From NCBI GenBank assembly GCA_947588605.1, contig CANPYK010000022.1:1-35388 (forward strand): a stretch of 35,388 nt of DNA, written 5' to 3'. Below, in pieces: positions 2,793 to 35,336 of the stretch. The position numbers were made by a program, and so were the translations under genes. Source of the stretch: an uncultured Oscillospiraceae bacterium. Lineage in GTDB: Bacteria; Bacillota; Clostridia; Oscillospirales; Oscillospiraceae. Below the pieces are notes generated by a model. The model made no database searches. It was not told the origin of the DNA and saw only the letters and a program-made list of their open reading frames with translations. Numbering within the stretch: the stretch's first letter is position 1; the number at the start of each line of letters is the position of its first letter.

Positions 2793-2804
2793 GAGGGCTG
2801 ACAT

Positions 2805-3572
2805 ATGCAATTCAACAATTTTCCCCGTAAAGAAATCAGCTATGAAAAGAAAATGCAAATTGAAGAGAATAAAGAAAAAGTAGAAATGACTCTTGAATGT
2901 ATACGGGTACAACTCCCGTATGCTGTATTCTATAACTCAGAAACCGACAGTCTGCGTGAGCTGATAGCTTCTGTTGCTGACCGTTCTGATGATAACGGCT
3001 ATTTCATTGACTACCGAATAGGCCCACAGACGAAAGAACAGAGGAAAATGATGTTTAACATTGAGCACATAAGCGATCTTGCCCAGGAAGGGATCAAAAT
3101 GAATTTTATCGTGGATATGGAGAACCGGAGATACGTGTCGGCCTGTAAGGACGAAGATATCGGAACGTGCCTTTGCTCCCTTTACCCGGTCAATGCCACC
3201 AAACCCGTCATGCTGATGTCAGAAGAAAACCAGCGTCAGGGATTGTATGTGTACGTTGGCAAACCGTCTCAGGACGGCAAGGCTTACCTGTTTGCGAAAG
3301 ATAAAAAAGCACCGTTCTTTATCCAATTGCAGGAGCTTCACTTCCTGTCCTTACGAAAAGACGCAGAGCGAAACTACTATCACGGACTGCTTCTCAGCTA
3401 TAATGTGGCGTGGGGGTGGCGGAATATCTCGTTCTCAATCATACTGAAAGAAAACCAGGAGGCGGTCTGGCAGATGTTTGATTCTGTCAGGAGCGCCATG
3501 CAACCCGTGGGGCAAACGAACAGTGCCGGATCGGGCATGGGAGATAGAAGTTATTCGTACCCGTGGCAGTGA
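2805..3572 (+). CDS. Uncharacterised protein, second of a diverged paralogous pair
   Basis: A 255-residue protein of unknown function, 12 bases after its neighbour and preceded by AGGAGG, so almost certainly the third gene of the rep-like operon. The N-terminus is charged and probably helical (EKKMQIEENKEKVEMTLECI). The central and C-terminal part matches the preceding protein in order: DDNGYFIDY, a short gap, FNIEHISDLAQEGIKM, then FFIQLQELHFLSL at 171-183 and the following beta-rich stretch. The last 20 residues are rich in glycine, serine and glutamine (a flexible tail). No catalytic motif is evident. The pattern of short beta strands and turns would suit a small beta-barrel or PH-like domain, but that is only a guess from the sequence. 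Confidence 0.8.
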   Translation: MQFNNFPRKEISYEKKMQIEENKEKVEMTLECIRVQLPYAVFYNSETDSLRELIASVADRSDDNGYFIDYRIGPQTKEQRKMMFNIEHISDLAQEGIKMNFIVDMENRRYVSACKDEDIGTCLCSLYPVNATKPVMLMSEENQRQGLYVYVGKPSQDGKAYLFAKDKKAPFFIQLQELHFLSLRKDAERNYYHGLLLSYNVAWGWRNISFSIILKENQEAVWQMFDSVRSAMQPVGQTNSAGSGMGDRSYSYPWQ

Positions 3573-3610
3573 TGATGTCCCACTTTATGTGATATAACGC
3601 CGAAGAAACG

Positions 3611-3642
3611 GGAGACGGTGCAGCCGCAGCCACATCGTCTCC
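3611..3642. terminator. Possible bidirectional terminator between convergent genes
   Basis: GGAGACG (from 3611) pairs with CGTCTCC (ending 3642) across a loop of about 18 bases, in the gap between the rep-like operon and the convergent ATPase gene. The position suits a terminator, but there is no good T-run on either strand. Confidence 0.3.
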
Positions 3643-3690
3643 TTGAAATGTCATATCATCAGCTATTAAAGAACGAATGAATGAACGCCG

Positions 3691-4968
3691 TCAATCCTTC
3701 AGAGCCGTTATCGGCACCACGAAAACACCGTCCGGCCTTCGGTAGGCCGCGTTTGTCAGACCGCACAGCACGCAGAGGACTGCCGGGGGCCTGCCCCTGG
3801 GGTCCTCTTCAAATTTTCTCTTTATAGTTAAAAGGTTCTCTGCCGCGGCATCGATCTGGTTCACGCCCAGCTTGATCTCAAAGGCGCACCAGCTGCCGTC
3901 GGTAAGCTCGATAACGGCGTCGATCTCCCTGTTGCTGTAATCCTGATAGTGGTAAAGCCCCGCGCCAAAGGAGTCGGCGTAGATACGAAGGTCCCGCTCG
4001 CAAAGAGCCTCGAACAAAAAACCCAGTGTCTCCAAGTCCCCCAGCAGCCCGGAGGTGGTCGCCTTCAACAGGGCGCAGGCCAGGGAGGGATCGGCAAAAT
4101 GCCGTTTCTCCGCTTGCTTGACCCGCACGGAGGACTGCATCCCCGTGGAAAAGGGCGGCTGGTTGTCCGTGATAAAAAGACGTTTGAAGATGTCCAGATA
4201 CGCCGACAGCGTGTCGGCGTCGATATCCTCGTCATCCACATCCCTGATATCCCGCATCAGCGTCCGATTGGTGGCGGTGGTGCTCTCGTTCCGGGCCAGA
4301 GAGCGCAGCAGCAGACGCATCTTCTGCGTGTCCCGTCTCACTCCGTCCATGCGGAAAACGTCGTCGTCAATGACCGCGTTCAGATATTCCGCTGGCAGCA
4401 GACTGGCCCTGTCAAGAGGCAGACCCAGACTTCCGGGCCAGCCTCCCCGGACGATGAGCTCAATCAGCCGCCGCAGGTCCACCTCCCCGGTGAGGCGGGG
4501 CGTCAGCTCCCCGTAGCAGAGTTTCTTTAAGGAGACCTTGCCGCTGGAGTCGCCGGACTCATACAGGGACATGGGCCGCATACGAAGCCGCCCGATCCGT
4601 CCGGCTCCGCTGTGGAGGATGCCCTTGTGGTTTGGCGTTGCGGACCCGGTGAGGATAAACTGGCCCTTTTGAGGCTTCTCATCCACCTTATACCGCACGG
4701 CGTCCCAAAGCGGCGGCACCTCCTGCCACTCGTCGATGAGCCTGGGCGTCTCTCCCTCCAGCACCAAAGCGGGGGAGAGCTGGGCCAGCTGCCGGTTCTG
4801 GAAGTTCCCCGCCGGGTCTCCGATGTAGATCTCACTGTTGCTGTGGTACGCCGAGGTCCAGGTCTTCCCGCACCACTTCGGACCCTCAATACAGACGGCG
4901 CCAAAGGCGGCCAGATATTCCTCCACCTTCCGATCAATGATCCTCGGCCTGTAGCTCTGCTTGTCCAT
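3691..4968 (-). CDS. AAA family ATPase with DUF4143 (PD-(D/E)XK-like) C-terminus
   Basis: A 425-residue protein of the widespread AAA_14/DUF4143 family. The Walker A motif is G29-P-K-W-C-G-K-T36 and Walker B is L-I-D79-E80-W, followed by the sensor-like ILTGSATP. The C-terminal domain has R-E-I-D350-A-V and, 14 residues on, F-E364-I-K366, the spacing expected of a PD-(D/E)XK nuclease-like core. Whether it cuts DNA is unknown; family members often look like regulators or accessory factors, and their function is poorly understood. GGGAGG lies before the ATG at 4968. The gene is more GC-rich than the divergent gene next to it, so the two probably have different origins. The promoter region carries a direct repeat that may be an operator. 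Confidence 0.9.
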   Translation of the reverse strand: MDKQSYRPRIIDRKVEEYLAAFGAVCIEGPKWCGKTWTSAYHSNSEIYIGDPAGNFQNRQLAQLSPALVLEGETPRLIDEWQEVPPLWDAVRYKVDEKPQKGQFILTGSATPNHKGILHSGAGRIGRLRMRPMSLYESGDSSGKVSLKKLCYGELTPRLTGEVDLRRLIELIVRGGWPGSLGLPLDRASLLPAEYLNAVIDDDVFRMDGVRRDTQKMRLLLRSLARNESTTATNRTLMRDIRDVDDEDIDADTLSAYLDIFKRLFITDNQPPFSTGMQSSVRVKQAEKRHFADPSLACALLKATTSGLLGDLETLGFLFEALCERDLRIYADSFGAGLYHYQDYSNREIDAVIELTDGSWCAFEIKLGVNQIDAAAENLLTIKRKFEEDPRGRPPAVLCVLCGLTNAAYRRPDGVFVVPITALKD

Positions 4969-17358: not shown

Positions 17359-17410
17359 GGTCCGCAGGGTTCCCGACTTAGGAGGGGCAAACATATCGAG
17401 GGCGGCGCCA

Positions 17411-17779
17411 TTTATCGGAACCGTTCTGTCATCCAACGCTCGCTGCCCCCCTCCCCCCCTCCTACGAGGAGGGGGCTCCGAGACGGGGGCGGGTGCGGGT
17501 TATCGGGACCGGTTCGATGAACGGGCCCACCTCATCCGGTGCCTGCGGGCGCCACCTTCCCCACTTTGTGGGGAAGGCTAGGACGGGGGCTCGAATACCC
17601 CGCCGCTGCGGCGGCACCCCTTTTTCCGAAAAAGGGGTCAAGGAGAATAAGGTTGCGGCGCTTCGCGCCGCGTTTATATTAAAATTGCGCCGCAAAGCGG
17701 CGCATCCTTTTTGAGCCCCCTCCTCGTAGGAGGGGGGTAGGGGGGAAGCGAGCGTGGGATGACAGGGCGGTTCGATGAC
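17411..17779. repeat. Composite intergenic element with ~65-bp inverted ends, copy 1
   Basis: The left end (17411-17477) and the inverted right end (17714-17778) match at roughly nine in ten positions and include the palindrome CTCCTACGAGGAG. Between them lie a CCTTCCCCACTTTGTGGGG module and a hairpin-rich block (17591-17713) with three stem-loops. The same ends and the same inner modules recur at about 25004-25657 in a longer arrangement. No ORF inside looks like a transposase, so it would be a non-autonomous element or an expanded structural repeat. Confidence 0.7.
17591..17713. repeat. Hairpin-rich repeat block, copy 1
   Basis: About 120 bases beginning TCGAATACCCCGCCG, with the palindrome CCCCTTTTTCCGAAAAAGGGG, then GCGGCGCTTCGCGCCGC and GCGCCGCAAAGCGGCGC, ending CATCCTTTTTG. 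Near-identical copies are at 25372-25490 and 31762-31882. The ORFs that cross it are repeat sequence, not genes. Confidence 0.8.
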
Positions 17780-18175
17780 CCGCAGGTTATAAACATGGGG
17801 CGGGTCGCCGTCCCCGGCGACCCGCCCCATGTTTATTGACACAATCCGAACACCGCCGTACGGGCCGCCGCCCACGGCGGCCCATGCCCCCGATAACCGA
17901 CATTTACCGTTTTATCGGACCCGTTCCCCGTCACGCCACGTGGGTACGGGCGGACACATGGGTCCGCCCCTACGAGGAATAGGGAATGTTATCCCATTTA
18001 ACCGACATTGGAGGTTATCGAAACGCGGGTCGCCGAGGACGGCGACCCCTACGGCGTTCATCGGGGGCAATCCGAACCCCGCAACCTGGGCCGCTGTGGG
18101 CAGCGGCCCGTACGGCGTTGATTGGAAACATTCCAAAAACTGTAGGGGCGGGTTCTAAACCCGCCCGTCCCCGCT
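17780..18175. repeat. Array of short stem-swapping hairpins in a gene-free gap
   Basis: This gap holds six hairpins. A perfect palindrome with 20-bp arms and a TCCC loop spans 17791-17834. Hairpins of about 22 bases with a GGG...CCC frame lie at 17862-17883, 18027-18048 and 18088-18109 (each 9+4+9). Longer relatives with TAC flanks lie at 17944-17973 and 18142-18168. Stem sequences differ (GGGCCGCCG, GGGTCGCCG, GGGCCGCTG, GGGCGGGTT) yet pair fully in each. Flanking text such as CGAAACGCGGG and CTACGGCG is shared with 34849-34936. Confidence 0.75.
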
Positions 18176-24775: not shown

Positions 24776-24955
24776 CTGGCTTTGAAGGCCGCTCCAAATG
24801 CCAAGGGGAGCGTGCGAAAGCCCCTGCTCGAATTCCGCGGAATTCGAGCAGGGGCTTTCTGCTGTCACGCTCCGCGCGCCGCAAGCGGCACACTTGCGTG
24901 ACAAAAGGTATTTTTTCCGACGTACACGCCGCCGGAAAAAATGGCTCGATGGGGG
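24776..24955. repeat. Constant-frame/variable-palindrome repeat, copy 1 (after acpP)
   Basis: Begins CTGGCTTTGAAGGCCGC and contains a perfect 44-bp palindrome (24816-24859, 22-bp arms, centre TTCCGCGGAA) just after GCGTGCGAAA, then CTGCTGT...GCTCCGCGC and a second hairpin (CCGCAAGCGG). It ends in a block with CAAAAGGTATTTTTTCC, also found inverted at 35055-35113. The long palindrome could terminate acpP transcription. Near-identical flanks but different palindromes are at 34528 and 35223. Confidence 0.75.
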
Positions 24956-25003
24956 GGATTTGCCCCTCCAACGGAGGGGCTAACGTGACGTGGCTGATGC
25001 GAT

Positions 25004-25657
25004 TCATCGGGACCGCTCTATCGTCCAACGCTCGCTTCCCCCCTGCCCCCCTCCTACGAGGAGGGGGCCCGAAGACCGGGGGCGGGTGCGATTTATCGGA
25101 ACCGTTCCATAATCGCAACCTCTTTTGCCCCTCCTACGGAGGGGTGGCCGAGCGCAGCGAGGCCGGGGTGGTTCCGTCTATCCCACTGCCCAAATAATCG
25201 CACCCGCCCCGATTCAGAGCCCTCCCCGCAGGGCGGGGAGGGGGAGGGGTGAGGTGGGAGCCGAAGGGCTTTGAGCGGTTGCGATGAACGCACCCACCTC
25301 ATCCGGCGCCTGCGGGCGCCACCTTCCCCACTTTGTGGGGAAGGCTAAGACGGGGGACGGGGGACGAGGGCTCGAATACCCCGCCGCCGCGGCGGCACCC
25401 CTTTTTCCGAAAAAGGGGTAAAGGGGAATAAGGTTGCGGCGCTTCGCGCCGCGTTTAAAAAAATTGCGCCTCCGGCGCAAACCTTTTTGACCCCCTTTGG
25501 GGCAAAGGGGGCAGGGGGGATCCGAGCCCCCGTCCCCCGTCCCCGCCGCGCGGGCAAATCAAAATCCGCGGCGAAGCCGCAACCTTTTTCGCCCCCTCCT
25601 CGTAGGAGGGGGGCAGGGGGGGCAGCGAACGTTGGAGGACAGAGCAGCCGCGATAAA
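25004..25657. repeat. Composite intergenic element with ~65-bp inverted ends, copy 2
   Basis: The left end (25004-25070) and the inverted right end (25591-25657) match the ends of the element at 17411-17779. Inside are the CCTTCCCCACTTTGTGGGG module, the hairpin-rich block (25372-25490), a GCCCCTCCTACGGAGGGG module (about 25126-25175) also seen at 31673-31722, and CCGCCGCGCGGGCAAATC as at 34941-34958. It lies in the 930-base gene-free gap between acpP and the ATP-grasp gene; I see no gene in it. Confidence 0.7.
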
Positions 25658-25669
25658 CCGCCTGGGCGC

Positions 25670-25699
25670 AAAAAAACGCGGCCGCCGGAGGCGGCCGCG
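25670..25699 (-). terminator. Rho-independent terminator of the ATP-grasp gene
   Basis: Read leftward, CGCGGCCGCC (the complement of 25699-25690) pairs with GGCGGCCGCG (25686-25677) across a 3-base loop and is followed by seven T (25676-25670), just after the stop codon at 25708. Confidence 0.9.
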
Positions 25700-25707
25700 G
25701 TGGGGGG

Positions 25708-26670
25708 TCATTTCTGCTCCAGGGCCTTGTGCCAGGTGCGCTTGAGGCCCCTGGGGGCGGAGCCCTGCATGATCTGGGGGCCGGGGTGGGCGTTGCCCTC
25801 GACGATGATGGGGCCGTCGGCGGTGATGGCCACGTCCCAGCCGGCCAGGACCACCTCCGGGGACAGGGCGGTAACATCCGCCACCAGCTTTTTGACCTTG
25901 TCCCACTGAGGGATCTGGAAGCCGGGGATGACCACGCCGGTGGTGGGGTGGCGCAGGAAGCGCTGGCCGTTGGTGTTGGCGGCGCGGCCGGTGATGACGC
26001 CGGTCTCCGGGTCCACCTCAGCGAAGATGCCGCCGGCGTCGCCGTTGTCCACGAAGGCCCCGCCCACGCCCAGGCGCGTCACGGCGGAGACCAGCCTGCC
26101 GTGGATGGTGAAGGGCCGCACGGTGTTCACGGACCCCGGGTGGATGGCCGCCATCTCCGGGCACTGGACGATGAGCTCCTCGGCGATCTCGTCCTTCTCC
26201 GTCATCTCCCGCCACAGCGCCTCCCGGTCCGTGTCGGCCAGGGAGACCTTATGGACGCCGTCGCCGCTGTTGCCGCAGCGGGGCTTGACCACGAATTCGC
26301 TGTGCTTATCGCAGAAGGCGTCGAACTCCTCCCGGCTGCCCCGGCGGACACGGCCGATCCAGTCCCGGCGGACGAAGGCGTCGAACCGCTCCAGGAACAC
26401 GTCCTTGTCGTTGAAGGCCGGGTGGGCCTCCTTGGGGTTATGGCGGACGATGGGGAGCATACTCCGGAGGGTCACGAACTCCCGGCGCCCCCGGTGGTTG
26501 AGCTTGTAAAACTCGTAGAGGAAATAGTCGGTGATGGTGCTCCCGTGGACGATGTAGGCCCGCGCGAAGTCCGCCATCAGGTACGCTTTGGAGTACCCCT
26601 TCTCCCTGGCCGTGGCGCTGAGCGCGTCAAACCGCGCCATGTGCCGCCGGATCTTGTTTCCGATCCCCAT
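25708..26670 (-). CDS. Sugar-transfer-associated ATP-grasp protein
   Basis: A 320-residue ATP-grasp-fold protein of the type found beside sugar-transfer genes (ATPgrasp_ST-like). The central part has E-F-V-V-K-P-R-C-G-N-S-G-D-G-V, the nucleotide-binding lysine and glycine-rich loop, then A-E-E-L-I-V-Q-C-P-E and S-V-N-T-V-R-P-F-T. The C-terminus holds D-V-A-I-T-A-D-G-P-I-I-V-E-G-N-A-H-P-G-P, with the conserved acid and asparagine that bind magnesium in this fold. It should ligate a carboxylate and an amine with ATP; the substrate is unknown, and no glycosyltransferase genes sit beside it. GAAAGGAG precedes the ATG at 26670. Other ATP-grasp ligases remain possible. Confidence 0.82.
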   Translation of the reverse strand: MGIGNKIRRHMARFDALSATAREKGYSKAYLMADFARAYIVHGSTITDYFLYEFYKLNHRGRREFVTLRSMLPIVRHNPKEAHPAFNDKDVFLERFDAFVRRDWIGRVRRGSREEFDAFCDKHSEFVVKPRCGNSGDGVHKVSLADTDREALWREMTEKDEIAEELIVQCPEMAAIHPGSVNTVRPFTIHGRLVSAVTRLGVGGAFVDNGDAGGIFAEVDPETGVITGRAANTNGQRFLRHPTTGVVIPGFQIPQWDKVKKLVADVTALSPEVVLAGWDVAITADGPIIVEGNAHPGPQIMQGSAPRGLKRTWHKALEQK

Positions 26671-26689
26671 GCTGTTCTCCTTTCAAATT

Positions 26690-26715
26690 TATCCCCCACC
26701 GCACGGTGGGGGATA
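26690..26715. terminator. Symmetric hairpin between rny and the ATP-grasp gene
   Basis: TATCCCCCACC (26690-26700) and GGTGGGGGATA (26705-26715) form an 11-bp perfect stem with a GCAC loop, 22 bases past the rny stop codon at 26737 and about 20 before the ATP-grasp gene. On the minus strand it could end rny transcription (AAATTT follows), or act on the downstream gene. Confidence 0.6.
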
Positions 26716-26736
26716 ATATCGCTCAGGTGAGTCGTG

Positions 26737-28278
26737 TTATTTCGCGTACTCCACGGCCTTGGTCTCCCGAAAGAGGTTGACCTTGATCTGGCCGGGGTAC
26801 TCAAGCTCGGCCTCGATCTTCCTGGCGATCTCCCGGGCCAGGAGGACCATATCGTCCTCGGAGACCTCCTCGGGCTTGACCATGATGCGGATCTCGCGGC
26901 CGGCCTGGATGGCGTAGCTTGTCTCCACACCCTTGAAGGAGGAGGTGAGCTCCTCCAGCTTCTCCAGACGCTTGATGTAGTTTTCGATGTTCTCGCGCCG
27001 CGCGCCGGGGCGGGCGGCGGAGATGGTGTCCGCGGCCTGGACGAGGCAGGCGATGACGGTGTGGGGCTCCACGTCGCCGTGGTGGGCCTCGATGGCGTGG
27101 ATGACCTCGTCGCTCTCCCGATACCGGCGGGCCAGCTCCACGCCCAGCTGGACGTGGCTGCCCTCCATCTCGTGGTCAACAGATTTTCCAAGGTCGTGGA
27201 GAAGCCCGGCGCGCTTGGCGGTGGCCACGTCCACGCCCAGCTCCGAGGCCAGGAGCCCCGCGATGTAGGCGACCTCCTTGGAGTGGTTGAGCACGTTCTG
27301 GCCGTAGCTGGTGCGGTATTTCATGCGCCCTAAGAGCTTGATGAGCTCCGGGTGCAGGCCCCGGACGCCCGTCTCAAAGACGGCGCGCTCGCCCTCGGCC
27401 TTGATGGTGGCGTCCACCTCCCGGCGGGCCTTCTCCACCATCTCCTCGATGCGGGTGGGATGGATGCGGCCGTCCTGGATGAGCTTCTCCAGCGCCAGGC
27501 GGGCGATCTCCCGCCGGACGGGGTCAAAGCTGGAGACGGTGATGGCCTCCGGCGTGTCGTCGATGATGAGGTCCACGCCGGTGAGCGTCTCGATGGAGCG
27601 AATGTTGCGGCCCTCGCGGCCGATGATGCGGCCCTTCATCTCGTCATTGGGCAGGGGAACCACACTGACGGTAGCTTCGGCCACATGGTCGGCGGCGCAG
27701 CGCTGGATCGCCAGGGTGATGATCTCCCGCGCCTTCTCGTCGGCCTCCTCCTTGTATTTCGCCTCGATCTCCTTGACCTTCATGGCGGCCTCGTGGGTGC
27801 ACTCGGCCTCCACGTTGGCGATAAGGTAGCTCTTTGCCTCCTCCATGGTGTAGCCGGAGATGCGCTCCAGCATCTCCAGCTGTCCGCGCTTAATGGTGTT
27901 GACCTCCTCCTTCGCGGCGTCCAGATCGGCCAGCTTCTTCTGAACCTGCTCGTTCTTCTTCTCCACGGCCTCGGTCTTCTTGTCCAGAGTCTCTTCCTTC
28001 TGCTGTAAGCGGCGCTCCTGCTTGGAAAGCTCCGCGCGGCGCTCCTTGACCTCGCGCTCGTACTCGGCGCGGTCGCGGTGGATCTCCTCCTTGGCCTCCA
28101 GCATGGCCTCGCGCTTTTTGTTCTCAGCGTCCTTGTACGCCTTGTTGATGATATCCTTCGCCTGCTCCTCGGCGTCGGCGATGGTCTGCTCGTCCCGCTT
28201 GCGCTTGAGGACGTTGATGAGCAGCATAACGCCCACGCCCACGGCAAACGCGGCGATCGCGGTTATGACATACCACAT
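26737..28278 (-). CDS. rny: Ribonuclease Y
   Basis: A 513-residue RNase Y, the membrane-bound endonuclease that starts mRNA decay in many Firmicutes. Residues 4-24 form a single membrane anchor ([21 protein letters not shown]). A long coiled coil (about 30-160) follows, then a KH domain ([30 protein letters not shown]) and an HD domain (about 320-430) with the metal pair H-D in [13 protein letters not shown]. Length is normal. GGGAGGTG lies 11 bases before the start. A consensus promoter lies upstream on the minus strand. Confidence 0.97.
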
Positions 28279-28388
28279 GCGAGTGGATACACCTCCCTTT
28301 CTGAAAAATTGATTTTGTTTTGACTATGTTATGAACCTTGATACGATTCCGAAATGCCCCTAAATATTTCGAAAAAATACCACTCTTT

Positions 28389-28417
28389 ATTTTACCTCTA
28401 TTATCGCGCAATGTCAA
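28389..28417 (-). promoter_or_regulatory. rny promoter
   Basis: On the minus strand TTGACA (28417-28412), a 17-base spacer and TAAAAT (28394-28389) match the sigma-A consensus, giving an rny leader of about 100 bases. Confidence 0.7.
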
Positions 28418-28472
28418 GCTGTTTTGTTGTTATTTTAACGAAGGCCCCCGTCTCTTTTCCCCACACTCCATC

Positions 28473-28501
28473 TTGAAAAATCCTCGCATCTGTGGTATCC
28501 T
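28473..28501 (+). promoter_or_regulatory. Promoter of the ThrE-type exporter pair
   Basis: TTGAAA (28473-28478), a 17-base spacer and TATCCT (28496-28501) lie 34 bases before the first exporter gene, back to back with the rny promoter. Confidence 0.6.
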
Positions 28502-28535
28502 CTACCCAACGGCAAACAGCGCGGGAGGTGAGCAG

Positions 28536-29318
28536 ATGGGATATTCCACGGACGAGGTGCTGGAGACGGCCTTTGAGGCCGGGCATATCCTGCTGGAAAG
28601 CGGCGCGGAGATCTTCCGGGTCGAGGAGACTATGGAGCGCATCTCCCGGTATTTCGGGGTGGACGACGCCCACCGGGACTTCTTCGTCCTGGCCAACGGT
28701 CTTTTCGCCACGGGCCTTACGGACCGGGGGCACTATGCCCGCGTCCGGCAAAGCCGCGTAAGCTCCGCGCGCCTTGCCCGGGTGGTGGCCATCAACCAGC
28801 TCTCCCGGGAGATCGAGCAGGGCCGCCACACTCTGCCGGACGTGAAACGGGAGCTGGCCCGCATCCGCGCCCTGCCGGACCCGCCGGCGATCCTGCAAAT
28901 CCTCGCCTCCGGCTTCGGGTCCGCCGCCTTTTGCCTCATGTTCGGCGGGAGCTTCCCGGACGCGCTGGCAAGCTTCCTGGCGGGGCTGCTCCTCTACGTC
29001 TTCGTGGTGTTCGTCAGCGCCCCCCATATGTCCAAAATTTCCGGCAACCTCTTCGGCGGGGCCATCGTCACATTGACCTCCGTGGCGCTGTGGCACGCGG
29101 GGCTGGGCTCGTCGCTGGGCAACATCATCATCGGCGGCATCATCCCCCTGGTCCCCGGTCTTGCCTTCACCAACGGCATTCGGGACATCGCCGACGGGGA
29201 CTACATCTCCGGCGCGGTGCGGCTTCTCGACGCGCTTCTCGTCTTCGCGTCCATCGCCATCGGCGTGGGCCTCGTCTTCACCGTCTACCGCCACATCACG
29301 GGAGGTGTGCCGCTGTGA
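28536..29318 (+). CDS. Threonine/serine exporter, ThrE family large subunit (YjjP-like)
   Basis: A 260-residue protein matching the N-terminal ThrE half (YjjP-like). A cytoplasmic domain opens with A-G-H-I-L-L-E-S-G-A-E-I-F-R-V-E-E-T-M, the family signature. About five membrane segments follow (ILQILASGFGSAAFCLMF, ALASFLAGLLLYVFVVFV, IIIGGIIPLVPGLAFTNGIRD, ALLVFASIAIGVGLVF). The start at 28536 follows GGGAGGTG. Its pair, the small subunit, starts at GTG 29315 and overlaps this stop. Together they are expected to export threonine, serine or, by analogy to E. coli YjjPB, succinate; the substrate cannot be fixed from sequence. Confidence 0.9.
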   Translation: MGYSTDEVLETAFEAGHILLESGAEIFRVEETMERISRYFGVDDAHRDFFVLANGLFATGLTDRGHYARVRQSRVSSARLARVVAINQLSREIEQGRHTLPDVKRELARIRALPDPPAILQILASGFGSAAFCLMFGGSFPDALASFLAGLLLYVFVVFVSAPHMSKISGNLFGGAIVTLTSVALWHAGLGSSLGNIIIGGIIPLVPGLAFTNGIRDIADGDYISGAVRLLDALLVFASIAIGVGLVFTVYRHITGGVPL

Positions 29319-29767
29319 CCATGCTCGTCCATTTCCTGGCCGCCGCGGTGGGCACCGTGGCCTTCGCCCTCATCTTCGGCGTGCCGCCCCGGTATTACGC
29401 CCTGTGCGCCCTCATCGGGGGCCTCGGCTTCCTCGCGGTGGACGTGCTGGAGGCCCTGGGCCTCTCCGCCACGGAGGCGACGCTTTTCGCCGCCGCTTTG
29501 GTGACCCTGAGCTCCCGCGTCTGCGCCGTCTGGCGGCGGTGCCCCGTCACCGTCTTCCTCGTCTCCGGCATCATCCCCCTGGTCCCCGGCGCCGGCGTCT
29601 ACTGGACGGCCTACTACCTCGTCATGGGCAACACCTCCGAGGCCCTGACCCGGGGCTTCGCCGCCATCCGCGCCGCCGTGGCCATCGTCCTGGGCATCGT
29701 GCTCATTTTGGAGATCCCCAACCGGGTCTTCCATTTTCACCGTAAAAATCGTGAAAAACGCATATAA
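29315..29767 (+). CDS. Threonine/serine exporter, ThrE_2 small subunit (YjjB-like)
   Basis: A 150-residue membrane protein of the ThrE_2 (YjjB-like) family, with four membrane segments: VHFLAAAVGTVAFALIFGV, YALCALIGGLGFLAVDVL, TVFLVSGIIPLVPGAGVYWT (repeating the GIIPLVPG motif of its partner) and AAVAIVLGIVLILEI. I start it at GTG 29315, which overlaps the partner's TGA and lies 7 bases after GGAGGTG; an ATG at 29321 is possible but spaced further. The split of one fused transporter into two subunits is normal. Confidence 0.88.
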   Translation: MTMLVHFLAAAVGTVAFALIFGVPPRYYALCALIGGLGFLAVDVLEALGLSATEATLFAAALVTLSSRVCAVWRRCPVTVFLVSGIIPLVPGAGVYWTAYYLVMGNTSEALTRGFAAIRAAVAIVLGIVLILEIPNRVFHFHRKNREKRI

Positions 29768-29795
29768 TAGGAACAAATTCAAGGAGGTAACCACC

Positions 29796-30596
29796 ATGGG
29801 AGAGCTCACAGGCAAAACAGTCATCATCACCGGCGGCGGACGCGCCACCCTCAAGGACGGCTCCGCCGGCTCCATCGGCTACGGCATCGCCATCGCCTTC
29901 GCCAAGGAGGGCGCGAACCTGGTCATCACCGGCCGCAACGTGAAAAAGCTCACGGACGCAAAGGAGGAGCTGGAGCGCCTCTACGGCATCCGGGTCCTGC
30001 CCGTCCAGGCGGACATCAGCGCCGGCGCGGACAACGAGGCGACCGTGAAGCGGGTGGTGGACGAGACCGTGGCCGCCTTCGGCCACATCGACGTGCTCAT
30101 CAACAACGCCCAGGCGTCGGCCTCCGGCGTGACGCTGGCCGACCACACCACCGCGCAGTTCGATCTGGCCCTCTACTCCGGGCTCTACAGCGCCTTTTAC
30201 TACATGAAGGCGTGCTACCCCTACCTCAAGGAGACGAAGGGCAGCGTCATCAACTTCGCCTCCGGCGCGGGGCTCTTCGGCAACTTCGGCCAGTGCGCCT
30301 ACGCCGCCGCCAAGGAGGGCATCCGGGGCCTCAGCAGGGTCGCCGCCACCGAGTGGGGGCGGGACGGCATCAACGTCAACGTCATCTGTCCCCTGGCCTG
30401 GACCGCCCAGCTGGAGAACTTCCAGGACGCCTATCCCGACGCCTTCAAGGCCAACGTCCACATGCCCCCCATGGGCCACTACGGCGACCCGGAGCGCGAG
30501 ATCGGCCGCGTCTGCGTCCAACTCTCCACCAGCGATTTCAAGTACCTCTCCGGCGAGACGCTCACCCTGGAGGGCGGCATGGGCCTGAGGCCGTAA
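29796..30596 (+). CDS. Short-chain dehydrogenase/reductase
   Basis: A 266-residue classical SDR using NAD(P)H. The Rossmann motif begins T12-G-G-G, with an insertion (RATLKDGSAGS) before I-G-Y-G-I-A, so the usual TGxxxGIG is lengthened. Then comes the NNAQ motif (L-I-N-N-A-Q, in place of NNAG). The catalytic residues Ser156, Tyr169 and Lys173 have canonical spacing (S...YAAAK). The C-terminus ends in L-S-G-E-T-L-T-L-E-G-G-M, typical of the family (TGxxxxVDGG). The substrate is unknown. AAGGAGG precedes the ATG at 29796; TATAAT at 29763-29768 may be a -10 box without a clear -35. It is not obviously part of an operon. Confidence 0.9.
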   Translation: MGELTGKTVIITGGGRATLKDGSAGSIGYGIAIAFAKEGANLVITGRNVKKLTDAKEELERLYGIRVLPVQADISAGADNEATVKRVVDETVAAFGHIDVLINNAQASASGVTLADHTTAQFDLALYSGLYSAFYYMKACYPYLKETKGSVINFASGAGLFGNFGQCAYAAAKEGIRGLSRVAATEWGRDGINVNVICPLAWTAQLENFQDAYPDAFKANVHMPPMGHYGDPEREIGRVCVQLSTSDFKYLSGETLTLEGGMGLRP

Positions 30597-30601
30597 GATC
30601 A

Positions 30602-30636
30602 CAAAAAATTTTGGGGAAGGCCGCGCCTTCCCCAAA
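30602..30636 (-). terminator. Terminator of the CBS-domain gene (between convergent genes)
   Basis: TTTGGGGAAGGC (30610-30621) and GCCTTCCCCAAA (30625-30636) form a perfect 12-bp stem with a 3-base loop. The minus strand runs into T-rich sequence (complement of AAAAAATT), suiting the leftward gene. The SDR on the plus strand may share it. Confidence 0.85.
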
Positions 30637-30641
30637 TCCCT

Positions 30642-31070
30642 TTAAAGCTGTCTCAAATTGGACGATATCTTCGTCAGCGCCCGGCCGGACTCGTCGTTGA
30701 GCATGGTGACCCGGGCCATGTCCCCCAGGCTCACGATGCCCACCAGCCTCCCCTCCTGGGTCACCGGGAGACGGCGGACCTGGGCCGTGCCCATGAGCTC
30801 CCCGGCTCGGGCGGCCTCGTCGCCGGGGTTCACCGTCACGAGACTGCGGGACATGATCTCCCCCACGCTTGTTTCCCGGGGGCTTCGGCCCGTGGCCACG
30901 CACCGGAGGACGATGTCCCGGTCCGTCACCATCCCCCGCAGCGCCCCGCCGCCGTCCACCACCGGCAGGGACCCCACGTTGTGGCGGCTCAAAAGCCGCG
31001 AGGCCAGCGCCACCGTCTCGTCCTCGGAGATGGACACCACGGAATCGTTCATAATGTCGGCAACCTTCAT
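30642..31070 (-). CDS. Two-CBS-domain protein
   Basis: A 142-residue protein made of a tandem pair of CBS domains and nothing else: V-A-D-I-M-N-D-S...G-S-L-P-V-V-D-G...G-M-V-T-D-R-D-I-V (first) and V-G-E-I-M-S...R-R-L-P-V-T...L-V-G-I-V-S-L-G-D-M-A (second). Such pairs sense adenine nucleotides or S-adenosylmethionine and regulate partner proteins. No partner is evident next door. It converges on the SDR gene across a shared terminator. Confidence 0.92.
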   Translation of the reverse strand: MKVADIMNDSVVSISEDETVALASRLLSRHNVGSLPVVDGGGALRGMVTDRDIVLRCVATGRSPRETSVGEIMSRSLVTVNPGDEAARAGELMGTAQVRRLPVTQEGRLVGIVSLGDMARVTMLNDESGRALTKISSNLRQL

Positions 31071-31141
31071 GTCAAGTCCTCCCAGCTTTGTTTGAAGCTA
31101 TTCTCGCCAAAACCGGGACTATTTATACAAGAGGAGGCATC

Positions 31142-31585
31142 ATGACGCCTGAATTTTATATGCGCGAGGCCCTGGCCCTGGCCCGTGAGGCCGCCGAGGC
31201 CGGCGAGGCCCCCGTGGGGGCCGTAGTCGTGGACCCGGAGGGCCGGATCGTCGGCCGGGGCCGCAACCGCACCGAGGAGCGCGACGCCACCGCCCACGCC
31301 GAGCTGGAGGCCATCCGCGACGCCAGCCGCACTTTGGGCCGCTGGCGGCTGGACGGCTGCGCCCTCTACGTCACCCTGGAGCCCTGCCCCATGTGCGCCG
31401 GCGCCGTCTACAACGCCCGCCTTGCCGAGCTGCGCTACGGCGCCCGCGACCCCCGCGCCGGCGCCTGCGGCGGCCTCTTCAACCTCTTCCTGGAGCCCCT
31501 GGACCGCAAGATCAAGGTCTACGGCGGCGTCCTGGCGCCCGAGTGCCGGGAGGTGCTGACGGAGTTTTTCCGGGGGAGGAGATGA
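31142..31585 (+). CDS. tadA: tRNA-specific adenosine deaminase TadA
   Basis: A 147-residue cytidine-deaminase-fold enzyme that makes inosine at the wobble position of tRNA-Arg(ACG). The zinc and proton-shuttle residues are H52-A-E54 and P-C82-P-M-C85. The sequence A-P-V-G-A-V-V-V and Y-N-A-R-L matches TadA rather than guanine or cytidine deaminases. Start ATG 31142 follows AGAGGAGG. Length is normal. A repeat-rich gap begins directly after the stop codon. Confidence 0.94.
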   Translation: MTPEFYMREALALAREAAEAGEAPVGAVVVDPEGRIVGRGRNRTEERDATAHAELEAIRDASRTLGRWRLDGCALYVTLEPCPMCAGAVYNARLAELRYGARDPRAGACGGLFNLFLEPLDRKIKVYGGVLAPECREVLTEFFRGRR

Positions 31586-31960
31586 GGGCGGGAGCGCCGC
31601 CACGGAACCACCCCTGCCGCTTCGCGGCTGTCCCCGACCTAGGAGGGGCTAAAAGGGGCGCGCAGGTAGTCTCGCCCCTCCTATGGAGGGGTGGCCGAGC
31701 GAAGCGAGGCCGGGGTGGTTCCGAAATGCGCCTCCCGAAACCCCCAGCGACGCTCCACGGGTTCGAATACCCCGCCACCGCGGCGGCACCCCTTTTTCCG
31801 AAAAAGGGGTCGGGGGAATAAGGTTGCGGCGCTTCGCGCCGCTTTTAAAAAAATTGCGCCGCAAAGCGGCGCATCCTTTTTGGTAGGGGCGGGTTCCAAA
31901 CCCGCCCGCCGATGATCGGACGGGAACGAAATATGCGGGCGGGTTTGGAACCCGCCCCTA
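31586..31960. repeat. Repeat mosaic after tadA
   Basis: This gene-free gap carries the GCCCCTCCTATGGAGGGG module (31673-31722, as at 25126-25175), the hairpin-rich block (31762-31882) and two stem-swapping hairpins in opposite orientation (31887-31907, 31937-31957; both GGGCGGGTT/AACCCGCCC). The GGTTCGAATACCC at 31760-31772 resembles a tRNA T-loop but belongs to the repeat. Confidence 0.75.
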
Positions 31961-31967
31961 CAGTGTG

Positions 31968-32128
31968 ATACTAATATCTATTTAAAAGAAGACACCGAGC
32001 GGCGAGGATTTTTCGTGTCAGGCAAGGAAGACGCCGCAGGGAATACTGTATGTATTCCCAAGGCGGCTGACGCCGCTTGACGCGAAAAAGACCGTCGCGA
32101 ATGTCTCCTTTTAATTAGATATTAGTAT
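31968..32128. mobile_element. MITE-like element, copy 2 (inverted relative to copy 1)
   Basis: About 161 bases with inverted termini (ATACTAATATCTATTTAAAA at the left; the inverted match ending ATTAGTAT at the right). The interior matches the reverse complement of 21465-21626: GAGCGGCGAGGATTTTT on the left, GACCGTCGCGAATG on the right, and GGCGGCTGACGC in the middle. It is followed by another small hairpin (32158-32179, GGGCGGAC/GTCCGCCC) and an 8-bp stem at 32185-32203. No coding capacity is seen. Confidence 0.8.
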
Positions 32129-32223
32129 GAATTGCAACATCTTCCAATTCGCCGTAGGGGCGGACCCATGTGTCCGCCCATTAGCCTCCCCCCACGGGGG
32201 AGGTTAAAAAGGTTTCCTCAGCC

Positions 32224-33069
32224 CTATTTCTGCTCCGCCACCGGCGGGACGAAGAGCGAATAGGTGTTGAGCATGGCCTGGGTGGTGAAGGAGTAGGAGT
32301 AGCCCCGGTCCAGGGCGGCGATCTCGGCAAGCTCGTCCTCGGTGAGGGAGAAGTCCAGGATGTCCAGGTCCTCCCTGAGGTGCGCCCGGTCCCTGGAGCC
32401 CACCACGAAGCCGTGGCCGGCGTCCAGATGCCAGCGCAGGATCACCTGCGCCGGGGTCTTCCCGTATTTTTCCGCAAGGCGCGTGAAGACCGGCTCCTTC
32501 AGGAGCTTCCCGTCCCCGTGGCCCAGGGGATACCACGCCTGAAGGGCGATGCCCTCCCGCTTTAAAAAGGCCGCCAGCTCCCGCTGCTGCATATAGGGGT
32601 GGAGCTGTACCTGCACGACCTCCGGCCGGACGCGGCACCGGCGCAGAACGTACTCCAGCTGGGACACGGAGAAGTTGGAAAGTCCGATGGCCCGGATATG
32701 TCCGGCCCGCAGGGCCTCCTCCAGCTGGGTGTAGCCCGTCATGTAGTTGCGGGTGGGGTGGTGGAGGAGCATCAGGTCCAGCGTGTCCACCCCCAGCCGC
32801 GCCATGGCGCGCTCCACGCCGTCGGGCTGTTCGTAGAAGGCCGGCCAGAGCTTGGACTCCAGAAAGACCTCCTCCCGGTCAAGGCCGGAGGCCCGCAGGG
32901 CGCGGCCCACGGCTTTTTCGTTCATGTAGGCGTTGGCGGTGTCCACCAGGCGGTATCCCGCCCGGAGGGCTTCGCCGACGGAGGCCTGCGCGTCGTCAGG
33001 TGAGAGCAGGAAGGTGCCCACGCCAACAAGGGGCATCTCGAGCCCGCCGGAAAGCGTCACATTTCTCAC
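32224..33069 (-). CDS. Aldo/keto reductase
   Basis: A 281-residue aldo/keto reductase (NADPH-dependent carbonyl reductase), similar to the AKR5-like bacterial group. The tetrad is visible as D-T-A-N-A-Y (Asp, Tyr), S-K-L-W (Lys) and L-H-H-P (His), with C-terminal cofactor-binding V-G-S-R-D. I set the start at GTG 33069, which lies 8 bases after GGAGG; this GGAGG follows the in-frame ATG at 33084, which has a poorer ribosome binding site. The substrate is unknown. It has its own promoter and faces the rpsF operon. Confidence 0.9.
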   Translation of the reverse strand: MRNVTLSGGLEMPLVGVGTFLLSPDDAQASVGEALRAGYRLVDTANAYMNEKAVGRALRASGLDREEVFLESKLWPAFYEQPDGVERAMARLGVDTLDLMLLHHPTRNYMTGYTQLEEALRAGHIRAIGLSNFSVSQLEYVLRRCRVRPEVVQVQLHPYMQQRELAAFLKREGIALQAWYPLGHGDGKLLKEPVFTRLAEKYGKTPAQVILRWHLDAGHGFVVGSRDRAHLREDLDILDFSLTEDELAEIAALDRGYSYSFTTQAMLNTYSLFVPPVAEQK

Positions 33070-33159
33070 GACTTGAACCTCCATAGCGCGGGGACCCCCG
33101 CGGCACAGCTGGACCGGGCCCAAGGGCTCCGGTCGATGTCGACTTTTTGCGCAAAATAC

Positions 33160-33188
33160 AGTATACTCCAAACGCGTCTTCCAGTCAA
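33160..33188 (-). promoter_or_regulatory. Promoter of the aldo/keto reductase gene
   Basis: On the minus strand TTGACT (33188-33183), a 17-base spacer and TATACT (33165-33160) form a good sigma-A promoter about 90 bases before the start codon, back to back with the rpsF promoter. Confidence 0.65.
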
Positions 33189-33240
33189 TACCTTTTTGCG
33201 GAAAAAACTGTCATCTTCGGAGAAGTTTTTGAAAAAATCC

Positions 33241-33268
33241 TTGACATTTCCGGGTTTTCGGGTATAAT
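33241..33268 (+). promoter_or_regulatory. rpsF operon promoter
   Basis: TTGACA (33241-33246), a 16-base spacer and TATAAT (33263-33268) match the consensus, with a leader of about 70 bases before rpsF. Confidence 0.8.
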
Positions 33269-33273
33269 TTATA

Positions 33274-33317
33274 AGCCCGTAGTCACGGGCAGCCTTGCCT
33301 TCGTTCGCCGCGAAGGC
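33274..33317 (+). promoter_or_regulatory. Possible S6:S18 autoregulatory leader structure
   Basis: The rpsF leader holds a CCGT/ACGG hairpin followed by GCCTTCG (33297-33303) paired with CGAAGGC (33311-33317), loop TTCGCCG. A CCG in a leader hairpin loop is a feature of the S6:S18-binding leader described in many bacteria, which represses the operon. The match is by position and loop content only. Confidence 0.4.
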
Positions 33318-33344
33318 CATAAGTCCAAAAGGAGGTGCAAAAAT

Positions 33345-33641
33345 ATGGCAAAGACAGCGGAAAAGTATGAGCTTCTGTACATCATCGACCCGGACCTCAA
33401 CGAGGAGGAGACCGCCGCCATCGTGGAGAAGTTCAAGAGCCTCATCGAAGCCAACGGCACCCTGGGCGAAATTGAGGAGTGGGGCAAGCGGAAGCTCGCC
33501 TATCTCATCAACGACAAGCCCGAGGGGTACTATGTGCTGGTGAAGTTCCAGTCCGCCCCGGAGTTCCCCGCGGAGCTCTACCGCGTTCTCGGCATCACCG
33601 AGGGCGTCATGCGTGCCCTTGTCACCGTTCAGCCGGAATAA
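33345..33641 (+). CDS. rpsF: Ribosomal protein bS6
   Basis: A 98-residue bS6. The family features Y-E-L-L-Y-I-I-D-P (usually YE-x-x-x-I-x-P), G-K-R-K-L-A-Y-x-I and G-Y-Y-V-L-V-K-F are present, and the acidic helix [12 protein letters not shown] is typical. It belongs to the small-subunit platform beside S18. The start at 33345 follows AAGGAGGTG. It begins the rpsF-ssb-rpsR operon. Confidence 0.96.
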
Positions 33642-33653
33642 GGAGGACGCGAC

Positions 33654-34214
33654 ATGCTCAACCACATCGTGATCATGGGCCGCCTCACCCGCGACCCGGA
33701 GCTCAGACGGACCCAGGCCGGGATCCCCGTGGCGTCCTTCCGCGTCGCCGTTGACCGGGACTTCGCGCCCAGGGACGGCGGAGAGCGGCAGGCCGACTTC
33801 ATCGACGTCGTGGCCTGGCGCGCCACCGCTGAGTTCGTCAGCAAGTATTTCAGCAAAGGCCGTATGGCCGTCGTCTCCGGCCGCCTTCAGATGCGCGACT
33901 GGACCGACAAGGAGGGCAACAAGCGCACCAGCGCCGAGATCGTCGCCGACAACATCTACTTTGGCGAATCCAAGCGCGACGGCGACAGCCAGGGAAGCTA
34001 CAATCAGGGCGGCTATAACCAGGGCGGCTACAATCAGAACCGCTCTTACTCCGACGCCCCCCAGTCCGGCAGCTACGGCTCCGGCTCCTACGGCGGGAGC
34101 TACGGCGGCGGCAGCGCCCCCGCGCCCTCCAATTACGGCAGCGCCGGAAGCTATTCCCCTCCCGGCTCGGATTTCGCCGACCTCACCGACGACGACGGCG
34201 ATTTGCCGTTCTGA
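33654..34214 (+). CDS. ssb: Single-stranded DNA-binding protein
   Basis: A 186-residue SSB, slightly long. The OB-fold (1-110) starts M-L-N-H-I-V-I-M-G-R-L-T-R-D-P-E-L-R and includes F-R-V-A-V-D-R and F-I-D-V-V-A-W-R-A-T-A-E-F. A flexible linker rich in glycine, tyrosine, serine, asparagine and glutamine follows, and the acidic tip D-D-D-G-D-L-P-F binds partner proteins. The middle position in the rpsF operon is the standard one. AAGGAGGA precedes the ATG at 33654. Confidence 0.97.
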   Translation: MLNHIVIMGRLTRDPELRRTQAGIPVASFRVAVDRDFAPRDGGERQADFIDVVAWRATAEFVSKYFSKGRMAVVSGRLQMRDWTDKEGNKRTSAEIVADNIYFGESKRDGDSQGSYNQGGYNQGGYNQNRSYSDAPQSGSYGSGSYGGSYGGGSAPAPSNYGSAGSYSPPGSDFADLTDDDGDLPF

Positions 34215-34264
34215 CCCGAACCATTTATCCCTTCATATAACCTGAAAAAAGGAGGTTAACGTCA

Positions 34265-34519
34265 ATGACCAACGAGAGAGAAGCCCGTCCGGCCCGTCCC
34301 GCCCAGGCCCGCAAGCGCCGCAAGGTCTGCCAGTTCTGCGTGGACAAGTGCCAGCACATCGACTATAAGGACACCGCCAAGCTCCGCCGGTACCTCTCCG
34401 AGCGCAGCAAGATCCTTCCCCGCCGCGCCACCGGTACCTGCGCCATGCACCAGCGCCAGCTCACCACCGCCATCAAGCAGGCAAGGCAGATCGCCCTCCT
34501 GCCCTACGTCACGGACTGA
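34265..34519 (+). CDS. rpsR: Ribosomal protein bS18, zinc-binding form
   Basis: An 84-residue bS18 with [11 protein letters not shown] near the start and T-G-T-C-A in the second half. These four cysteines make it a zinc-binding (C+) form. Family motifs [21 protein letters not shown] and A-R-Q-I-A-L-L-P-Y are all there. AAAGGAGG precedes the ATG at 34265. It ends the operon, directly followed by a variable-palindrome terminator repeat. Confidence 0.96.
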
Positions 34520-34690
34520 GCTGGCTTTGAAGGCCGCTTTGCGGCCTTCAAATGCCAAGGGGAAACGTGCGAAAAAAGATTTCGGAAATGTCTGCGGACA
34601 TTTCCGAAATTTTTTTCTGCTGTTTTGCTCCGCGCATTGCGACTCGCTAAGAGCCGCCGCTTCGCGGCGGTTGCGCTCCGAAACGCGCCT
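34520..34690. repeat. Constant-frame/variable-palindrome repeat, copy 2 (rpsR terminator)
   Basis: Begins CTGGCTTTGAAGGCCGC as after acpP. After ACGTGCGAAAA the hairpin ATTTCGGAAATGTC/GACATTTCCGAAAT (34579-34592 with 34597-34610, TGCG loop) is flanked by A-run and T-run, a strong rho-independent terminator for rpsR. Then CTGCTGTTTTGCTCCGCGC and GCGACTCGCTAAGAGCCGCC follow, shared with the inverted copy near 35165-35216. Confidence 0.8.
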
Positions 34691-34739
34691 GCGGGCGCAG
34701 GCCCACAGCGGCCCTCACCTCCGATAACCGGCATTTTCC

Positions 34740-35040
34740 GTTACATCGGAACCGTTCCTGTCCCGCCACGTGCCACGGGCGGGTTTAGAACCCGCCCCTA
34801 CGGGGGAAATGGAAGGCAATCCCATTCATCCGACGCCGGAGGTCATCGAAACGCGGGCCGCCAAGAGAGGCGGCCCCTACGGCGTGGATTGAAACGAACC
34901 CCAAAAACTGTAGGGGCGGGTTCCAAACCCGCCCGTCCCCGCCGCGCGGGCAAATCAAAACCGCGGCGAAGCCGCAACCTTTTAAGCCCCCTCCTCGTAG
35001 GAGAGGGGCAGGGGGAAGCGAGGGTTAAATGACAGAGCGC
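34740..35040. repeat. Mosaic of stem-swapping hairpins and element ends
   Basis: Three short hairpins lie here: 34777-34797 (GGGCGGGTT/AACCCGCCC), 34855-34876 (GGGCCGCC/GGCGGCCC) and 34914-34934 (GGGCGGGTT/AACCCGCCC). A lone end of the 65-bp-ended composite element (about 34984-35040) follows, with CCGCCGCGCGGGCAAATC shared with copy 2. Flanking phrases repeat those at 17985-18170. I see no gene. Confidence 0.75.
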
Positions 35041-35049
35041 CTTCTACTT

Positions 35050-35300
35050 TACTATCCCCCTCATCGAGCCTTTTTTCCGGCGACATGTACGTCGGAAAAA
35101 ATACCTTTTGTTTTGCGGAGTGGGAAGCGTTGCGATGAGCGCCCGCAGGCGCCATGCAAGCGAGCAACCGCCCGAAGGGCGGCTCTTAGCGAGTCGCAGT
35201 GCGCGGAGCAAAACGGCAGAACCACCCTCCCTGAATTCCGCGGAATTCAGGGAGGGTGTTTCGCACGTTCCCTTTTGTCGGAAAAGGCCAATGGCCTTTT
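35050..35300. repeat. Constant-frame/variable-palindrome repeat, copy 3 (inverted)
   Basis: Read leftward this repeats copies 1 and 2. It runs GGGAACGTGCGAAA, a perfect 36-bp palindrome (35223-35258, 18-bp arms, centre TTCCGCGGAA), then CTGCCGTTTTGCTCCGCGC, the CGCTAAGAGCCGCC block, and at 35055-35113 the ACAAAAGGTATTTTTTCC hairpin also seen at 24900-24955. With copy 2 it forms a large inverted pair around the mosaic. An imperfect palindrome (GGAAAAGGCC/GGCCTTTTTC) adjoins at about 35277-35306. Confidence 0.75.
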
Positions 35301-35312
35301 TCGACAGGCCGC

Positions 35313-35336
35313 GCCCCCCGGCTTTCGCCGGGGGGC
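35313..35336 (-). terminator. Hairpin ending the gene at the right edge
   Basis: GCCCCCCGGC (35313-35322) and GCCGGGGGGC (35327-35336) form a perfect 10-bp stem with a TTTC loop, 13 bases past the stop codon of the partial gene. There is no T-run, so strength is uncertain. Confidence 0.6.

Follow-up and report, generated by a model that had tools for sequence, protein, structure and literature searches.

The staphylococcal elements IS1272 and TnSha1, both of the IS1182 family, insert at hairpins, often terminators, with no sequence preference, and in the available text of the reports on them the target hairpin is deleted or replaced, with no duplication (PMC5678879, PMC4923244). PMC5678879 also draws duplication of the whole hairpin as an alternative route, its "pathway b", and refers to a review for palindromic targets of the IS1182 family. 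Here we describe a repeat family of an uncultured Oscillospiraceae bacterium, three copies of which lie in a stretch of 35,388 nucleotides (assembly GCA_947588605.1, contig CANPYK010000022.1; hereafter the window), which is one of the 68 contigs of a 2.34-Mb genome (the source genome). We think it likely that the long palindromes of these copies are the second of four hairpins (H2) of a miniature inverted-repeat transposable element (MITE), that an IS1182-family transposase moves this MITE by joining it to the feet of a hairpin, and that DNA pairing is kept in H2.

Hairpin targeting in the IS1182 family and IS1182-related MITEs are already known and, as far as the accessible parts of the sources go, it is duplication of the whole hairpin that distinguishes the present family from the staphylococcal elements. 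Its IS1182-family transposase, its hairpin or terminator targets and its insertions behind genes are like those of IS1272 and TnSha1, but here the whole hairpin stands on both sides of the insertion (PMC5678879, PMC4923244). Deletion of the target hairpin, as for IS1272, does not describe the 5/5 insertion sequences and 44/68 MITEs that have the hairpin on both sides. The duplication that PMC5678879 draws as an alternative IS1182-type pathway seems to have occurred naturally here, in dozens of copies. MITEPye1 of Paracoccus yeei, as the accessible text describes it, is also non-autonomous, intergenic and foldable with IS1182-like ends, but has 1-3 copies per chromosome (PMC11578231), whereas the present family has about 58 frame copies in the source genome, four hairpins with covarying stems, and hairpin duplications. 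The pneumococcal BOX, RUP and SPRITE repeats, compared by description only and not by sequence, are likewise numerous and intergenic, with stable stems, some terminator-like elements and nesting (available parts of PMC10969869 and PMC3049150). The accessible part of PMC3196728 has no bearing on hairpin targets, and the present element family was not found in the open-licence literature searched.

Architecture of the element

An original prediction, made from the window alone, had described three long palindromes of unrelated sequence in a constant flanking frame and suggested a mobile or rebuilt terminator cassette. All three palindromes are present where predicted, and the actual hairpins are longer (42, 45 and 42 nt including A/T flanks). 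In the copy at 34566, AAA, not GNN, precedes CGTGCG. The frame pattern matches three times in the window and 0 times across 100 dinucleotide shuffles of the window, and the three hairpins all fold far better than shuffled sequences (z -8.6, -6.9 and -7.5). In a genome search for the flanks, 13/13 strict matches surround a palindrome and a reversed control pattern gave 0, while looser searches with one flank at a time gave 20 and 31 sites; the flanks recur in the genome and the sequences that they enclose are palindromic. The outer arms do differ as described, but many copies have a common inner core, such as GAATTCYGCGGAATTC or GGAAATGTCTGCGGACATTTCC.

The sites in the source genome yielded 38 copies in which the flanks enclose a hairpin, and their stem lengths are similar. 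A covariance model of H2 and its flanks gave 113 matches in this genome, 58 of which rank above the first antisense match; those below are mostly the same palindromes on the other strand, and the model thus puts the genome at about 58 frame copies. Model searches throughout are lower bounds in which distant matches may be missed (150 candidates per genome were scored in the source genome and the genus sample, and 17, with stricter filters, in the order sample). Across 257 loci, a symmetric pairing test was passed by 183 of 189 frame sites. By eye, four of the six failing sites (L010, L144, L169, L191) are odd-length hairpins misaligned by the test, and the other two (L171, L194) look like chance sites.

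A complete element is about 200 bp long and has four hairpins, the frame and its variable palindrome forming the middle (H2). In the direction of the upstream gene the order is left end with H1, AAGGGGAACGTGCG, H2, CTGCTGT, H3, AAAAGG, H4 and right end. The ends of full copies are inverted repeats (CAGnnTGTCnAAAAA...TTTTTTGACAnnCTG) and are nearly invariant in the 30 full copies that were aligned (those of 190-206 bp, from 37). In the consensus fold of these 30, two-sided changes occur at least once in 32 of 66 pairs. The outer stem of H3 covaries around constant inner motifs (GTTTTGC/GCAAAAC, GTCACGC/GCGTGAC, GTCGCCC/GGGCGAC and GTCAAATC/GATTTGAC), and the bases beside H2 can pair too, with one bulged base on the 3' side. 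At about 200 bp, the MITE would be too short for a transposase gene.

Hairpin duplications and a probable insertion-sequence partner

Several observations outside the window support mobility, the first part of the predicted cassette: full copies have inverted repeats at their ends and duplicated long hairpins around them, some rpsR loci have a plain terminator where others carry the element, and an insertion sequence shares the ends of the full copies. In a first set, 24 of 37 full copies lie between flanking direct repeats, compared with 2 of 358 shuffled flank pairs. In a larger set, for which the nearest left end was taken regardless of any repeat and each element was counted once, 44 of 68 unique full copies lie between direct repeats of 17-37 nt (median 30 nt), compared with 3 of 1332 shuffled flank pairs. 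These repeats are 6 nt or less from both element ends in 43/44 cases, and all 44 fold as hairpins of 6 or more predicted pairs, many of which look, by eye, like the upstream gene's terminator. We propose that the transposase would join the MITE to both feet of a hairpin, in many cases a terminator, and that gap repair would double the target hairpin; because the hairpin is doubled, the upstream gene would keep its terminator. REP/RAYT systems and integron attC sites were not considered further, given the terminal repeats and hairpin duplications of full copies.

Among 30 rpsR loci of the genus (330 nt after the stop codon), eight carry the element. It stands between two terminator copies in L103 and L105, after the terminator with an imperfect repeat in L111, and right after the stop codon, with no other terminator before it, in L104, L106, L110 (the source genome), L114 and L118. 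Several other loci show a plain rpsR terminator by eye, e.g., L094, L107, L108, L112 and L120. The term "terminator cassette" fits in part: the H2 behind rpsR scores as terminator-like, but the palindrome is an internal hairpin, and the native terminator of the gene either stands beyond the borders of the element, in many full copies twice, or is absent.

Transposases with PF13751 occur in 14/34 genomes of the genus, with six matches in the source genome. Five of 30 PF13751 loci (L276 of the source genome, L265, L267, L268 and L269) show both ends of a roughly 1.5-kb insertion sequence, each end carrying CAGnnTGTCAAAAAA; the other 25 are without this end pair, some being cut by a contig end and some belonging to a group with different ends. 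Duplicated hairpins flank 5/5 of these insertion sequences, and in L268 and L269 the hairpin is part of another repeat, not of a gene. The three transposases tested, that of L276 and two others, all exceed the cut-off of the IS1182 model NF033551 (372-385 bits; cut-off, 270) and carry PF13751, PF05598 and PF01609. Alignments between the MITE and the insertion sequence sit in the terminal repeats and span about 11-16 nt (best 25 of 317 short hits). Judged from these ends, an IS1182-family transposase probably moves the MITE in trans.

A second group of PF13751 insertion sequences (L258, L260, L262, L272 and others) has different ends, GGGGCTGTGAAAA...TTTTTTCACAGCCCC, and such an end replaces H1 in L039. 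Insertions were also seen within the hairpins of other copies: an insertion-sequence-length stretch in the H2 core of L226 (+ strand, 2330-3902) with a 20-nt duplication, a MITE inside an H2-like hairpin in L183, and a MITE inside H1 in L175. In L049, H2 is interrupted by another repeat (TACTAATATCTATTTAAAAGGAGACACCG...), which also surrounds the insertion sequence in L268. L113 has, after the rpsR terminator, a perfect solo palindrome of the MITE end only (CCTGTCGGAAAAGGCC-GAC-GGCCTTTTCCGACAGG), perhaps a remnant or a minimal mobile unit, and in L332 (+ strand, 148-231) two identical 25-nt hairpins enclose 83 bp that include both terminal motifs, which suggests that an even smaller unit may move. 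L202, considered as a 2-kb autonomous element, was rejected, as it consists of two copies around an ordinary gene.

Variation of H2

The stem of H2 changes while remaining paired. In an alignment of 31 of the 38 copies from the source genome (six near-repeats and one copy of odd length were left out), 97.7% of 597 stem cells are paired, 18 of 21 pairs have two-sided changes, and two-sided cells number 167 vs 1 one-sided. A larger set of 229 copies gave 177 distinct H2 sequences with 34 G.T, 53 A.C and 32 other mismatches vs 3129 paired cells, after sites pairing below 60% had been removed and with 7 of the 177, odd-length hairpins, excluded from the pair counts; as distinct classes, there are 24 G.T and 28 A.C mismatches. 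Because the copies are related, cells and pairs in these counts are not independent events.

Two-sided changes this strong would also be expected of a structured RNA at the 3' end of transcripts (a terminator, stabiliser or regulator) whose RNA pairing is selected and which spread along with its genes, a reading that we regard as possible but doubtful. Copies lie mostly in sense orientation behind genes, the upstream neighbour ending toward the element in 29 of 38 scored copies of the source genome (a further 4 at a contig edge and 3 lacking a neighbour were left out) and in 67 of 82 copies in metagenome-assembled genome loci (16 and 8 left out, respectively); many copies have stable loops of the UGCG type, and upkeep of H2 in place would be compatible with a benefit to the host. 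In a consensus terminator scan, the H2 behind rpsR (copy 2 of the window) scores on both strands, but the H2 hairpins of copy 1, behind acpP, and copy 3 do not, and terminator scans in all gave 1 and 4 sites vs 0.6 and 1.6 expected. No Rfam model matches the window at its gathering score, and for one full copy 17/17 Rfam matches fall below theirs. Terminal repeats and hairpin duplications indicate mobility instead and, because G.T mismatches are not favoured over A.C in either count (34 vs 53 cells; 24 vs 28 classes), the data suggest that what is kept is pairing in DNA, not in RNA. We infer that H2 would be kept up at the DNA level, as a hairpin or cruciform shape, by correction inside the palindrome or by selection on both strands. 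H2 mismatches do not accumulate as the flanking duplications diverge: in 16 copies with drifted duplications, 12 H2 mismatches were found vs 28.9 expected under equal drift (a rough Poisson P of 3e-4, for related copies).

Paired changes could also arise in one step, if template switching copied one arm onto the other. Stems maintained in this way have been described in RNA genes (available text of PMC8794818), and H2 is like them in its two-sided changes and loop inversions but differs in being a DNA repeat with no G.T preference and with one-sided intermediates in the nearest copies. Distinct hairpins one pair apart number 53 two-sided vs 25 one-sided, transversions make up 20 of 52 Watson-Crick to Watson-Crick changes, and inverted loops were seen in one of 44 duplicate pairs (L209), in one H2, and between L202 and L228, apparently one locus. 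Among the nearest copies (8 or fewer flank differences), however, only 3 pairs are two-sided vs at least 14 one-sided (medians of 40.5 for two-sided and 25 for one-sided pairs), and a stepwise series from C-G through T.G to T-A is visible across L166, L161 and L209. The duplicated host hairpins (n=44) comprise 19 identical pairs, 9 with loop-only changes, 8 one-sided, 1 two-sided and 7 with insertions or deletions; correction after a first mutation remains compatible with these counts. One-step template switching was thus rejected as a general rule, and as an account of H2 we consider it rather unlikely. Pairing in H2 so appears to be lost and then regained stepwise, in place and without preference for a strand.

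The same comparisons bear on the word "rebuilt" in the original prediction. Both arms do change together, but whole cassettes are not exchanged: the nearest copies differ at single positions, with mismatched intermediates, and exchange of whole palindromes was rejected on this ground. A host-made frame that receives exchangeable terminator palindromes would account for the constant flanks, the unlike outer arms and the site behind stop codons, yet H2 hairpins of one type turn up at many sites and the host terminator lies outside the element (e.g., L055, L103 and L105), which makes such a cassette highly improbable.

Several points weigh against a MITE moved by an IS1182-family transposase with DNA pairing kept in H2. 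Its link to the transposase consists solely of about 15 nt of common end sequence, and transposition itself was not observed. The hairpin content of the direct repeats has no shuffle control, "terminator" was assigned by eye, and for 24 of 68 full copies no direct repeat was seen. The source genome shows only four full copies (L001, L045, L047 and L055), three of them with the repeat, and both ends are present in 0/3 window copies. A right terminal repeat occurs in 0/30 source-genome rows sorted as TGGC-type (by a loose motif, with some TGTC-type rows included), and the two window copies behind acpP and rpsR are of this type, whose spread is left unexplained; our guess is that loss of the native terminator in TGGC-type copies would fit hairpin replacement. 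A perfect H2 is also unnecessary for moving. It was found in 9/18 copies with identical duplications, 11/22 with diverged ones and 10/19 with none, so that the share in young copies is as in older ones, and a strict requirement for it was rejected.

A wider and more tentative reading is that the MITE belongs to a shape-addressed mobile family, in which hairpin shape would be recognised in targets and within the element while the letters of the stem are free, and in which DNA-level palindrome correction, not an RNA function, would keep pairing. Its targets extend beyond terminators to H1 or H2 of other copies (L175, L183 and L226). If this is true, the family holds a natural record of perfect hairpins persisting through sequence turnover. 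Each duplicating insertion gives a hairpin pair identical at birth, alongside which the internal hairpin H2 exists as 177 distinct sequences within its constant frame, and the question of how stems drift yet stay paired becomes countable in one bacterial genus.

Window copies and distribution

The features of the three window copies are collected in Table 1. Their H1-H4 anatomy leads us to regard them as related to the mobile form.

Table 1. Parts of the three element copies in the window and their immediate neighbours
Feature	Positions	Strand	Basis or remark
Copy 1 H1, TGGC-type, one side shortened	24776..24803	+	Directly after acpP stop codon 24773-24775; acyl carrier protein by PF00550
Copy 1 left frame CGTGCG	24811..24816	+	Frame pattern
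Copy 1 H2, 42 nt, predicted as palindrome with 22-bp arms	24817..24858	+	Frame pattern, folding
Copy 1 right frame CTGCTGT	24859..24865	+	Frame pattern
Copy 1 H3, outer stem GTCACGC/GCGTGAC	24864..24902	+	
Copy 1 H4, then GGCTCGATG, without right terminal repeat	24910..24942	+	
Copy 2 H1, TGGC-type	34521..34557	+	1 base after rpsR stop codon 34517-34519; S18 by PF01084
Copy 2 left frame CGTGCG	34566..34571	+	Frame pattern
Copy 2 H2, 45 nt, scoring as terminator-like on both strands	34572..34616	+	Frame pattern, folding, consensus scan
Copy 2 right frame CTGCTGT	34617..34623	+	Frame pattern; atypical H3 beyond, no H4 found
Hairpin GCCCCCCGGCGAAAGCCGGGGGGC upstream of copy 3, after the end of a minus-strand gene; likely terminator of that gene	35313..35336	-	By eye
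Copy 3 H1 / left end, TGTC-type, CCTGTCGAAAAAGGCC...	35276..35308	-	
Copy 3 left frame CGTGCG	35262..35267	-	Frame pattern
Copy 3 H2, 42 nt	35220..35261	-	Frame pattern, folding
Copy 3 right frame CTGCCGT	35213..35219	-	Frame pattern
Copy 3 H3, long form, outer stem GTTTTGC/GCAAAAC	35110..35214	-	
Copy 3 H4, then GGCTCGATG, without right terminal repeat	35071..35101	-	

The covariance model found the element in 9 of 13 genomes in one sample of the genus, with one match outside it (E 7e-4), and an order-wide sample gave matches in 2 of 295 genomes, both in the host genus. The four genus genomes without a match (G003, G007, G008 and G009) are small assemblies of 1.4-1.7 Mb; those rich in matches are mostly larger. 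Named genome records hold at least 108 stretches, and the best 80 of 108 are all from uncultured Oscillospiraceae of a single series named Lapin, which we take to be from rabbit gut. Carriage by viral contigs was dropped as a candidate, no viral contig exactly matching the one pattern tried.

No tRNA genes were found in the window. Other repeats (GGGCGGGTT-AACCCGCCC, CCCCCTCCTACGAGGAGGGGG and more) form dense intergenic arrays at window positions 17381-18174, 24952-25700, 31458-32180 and 34640-35070.

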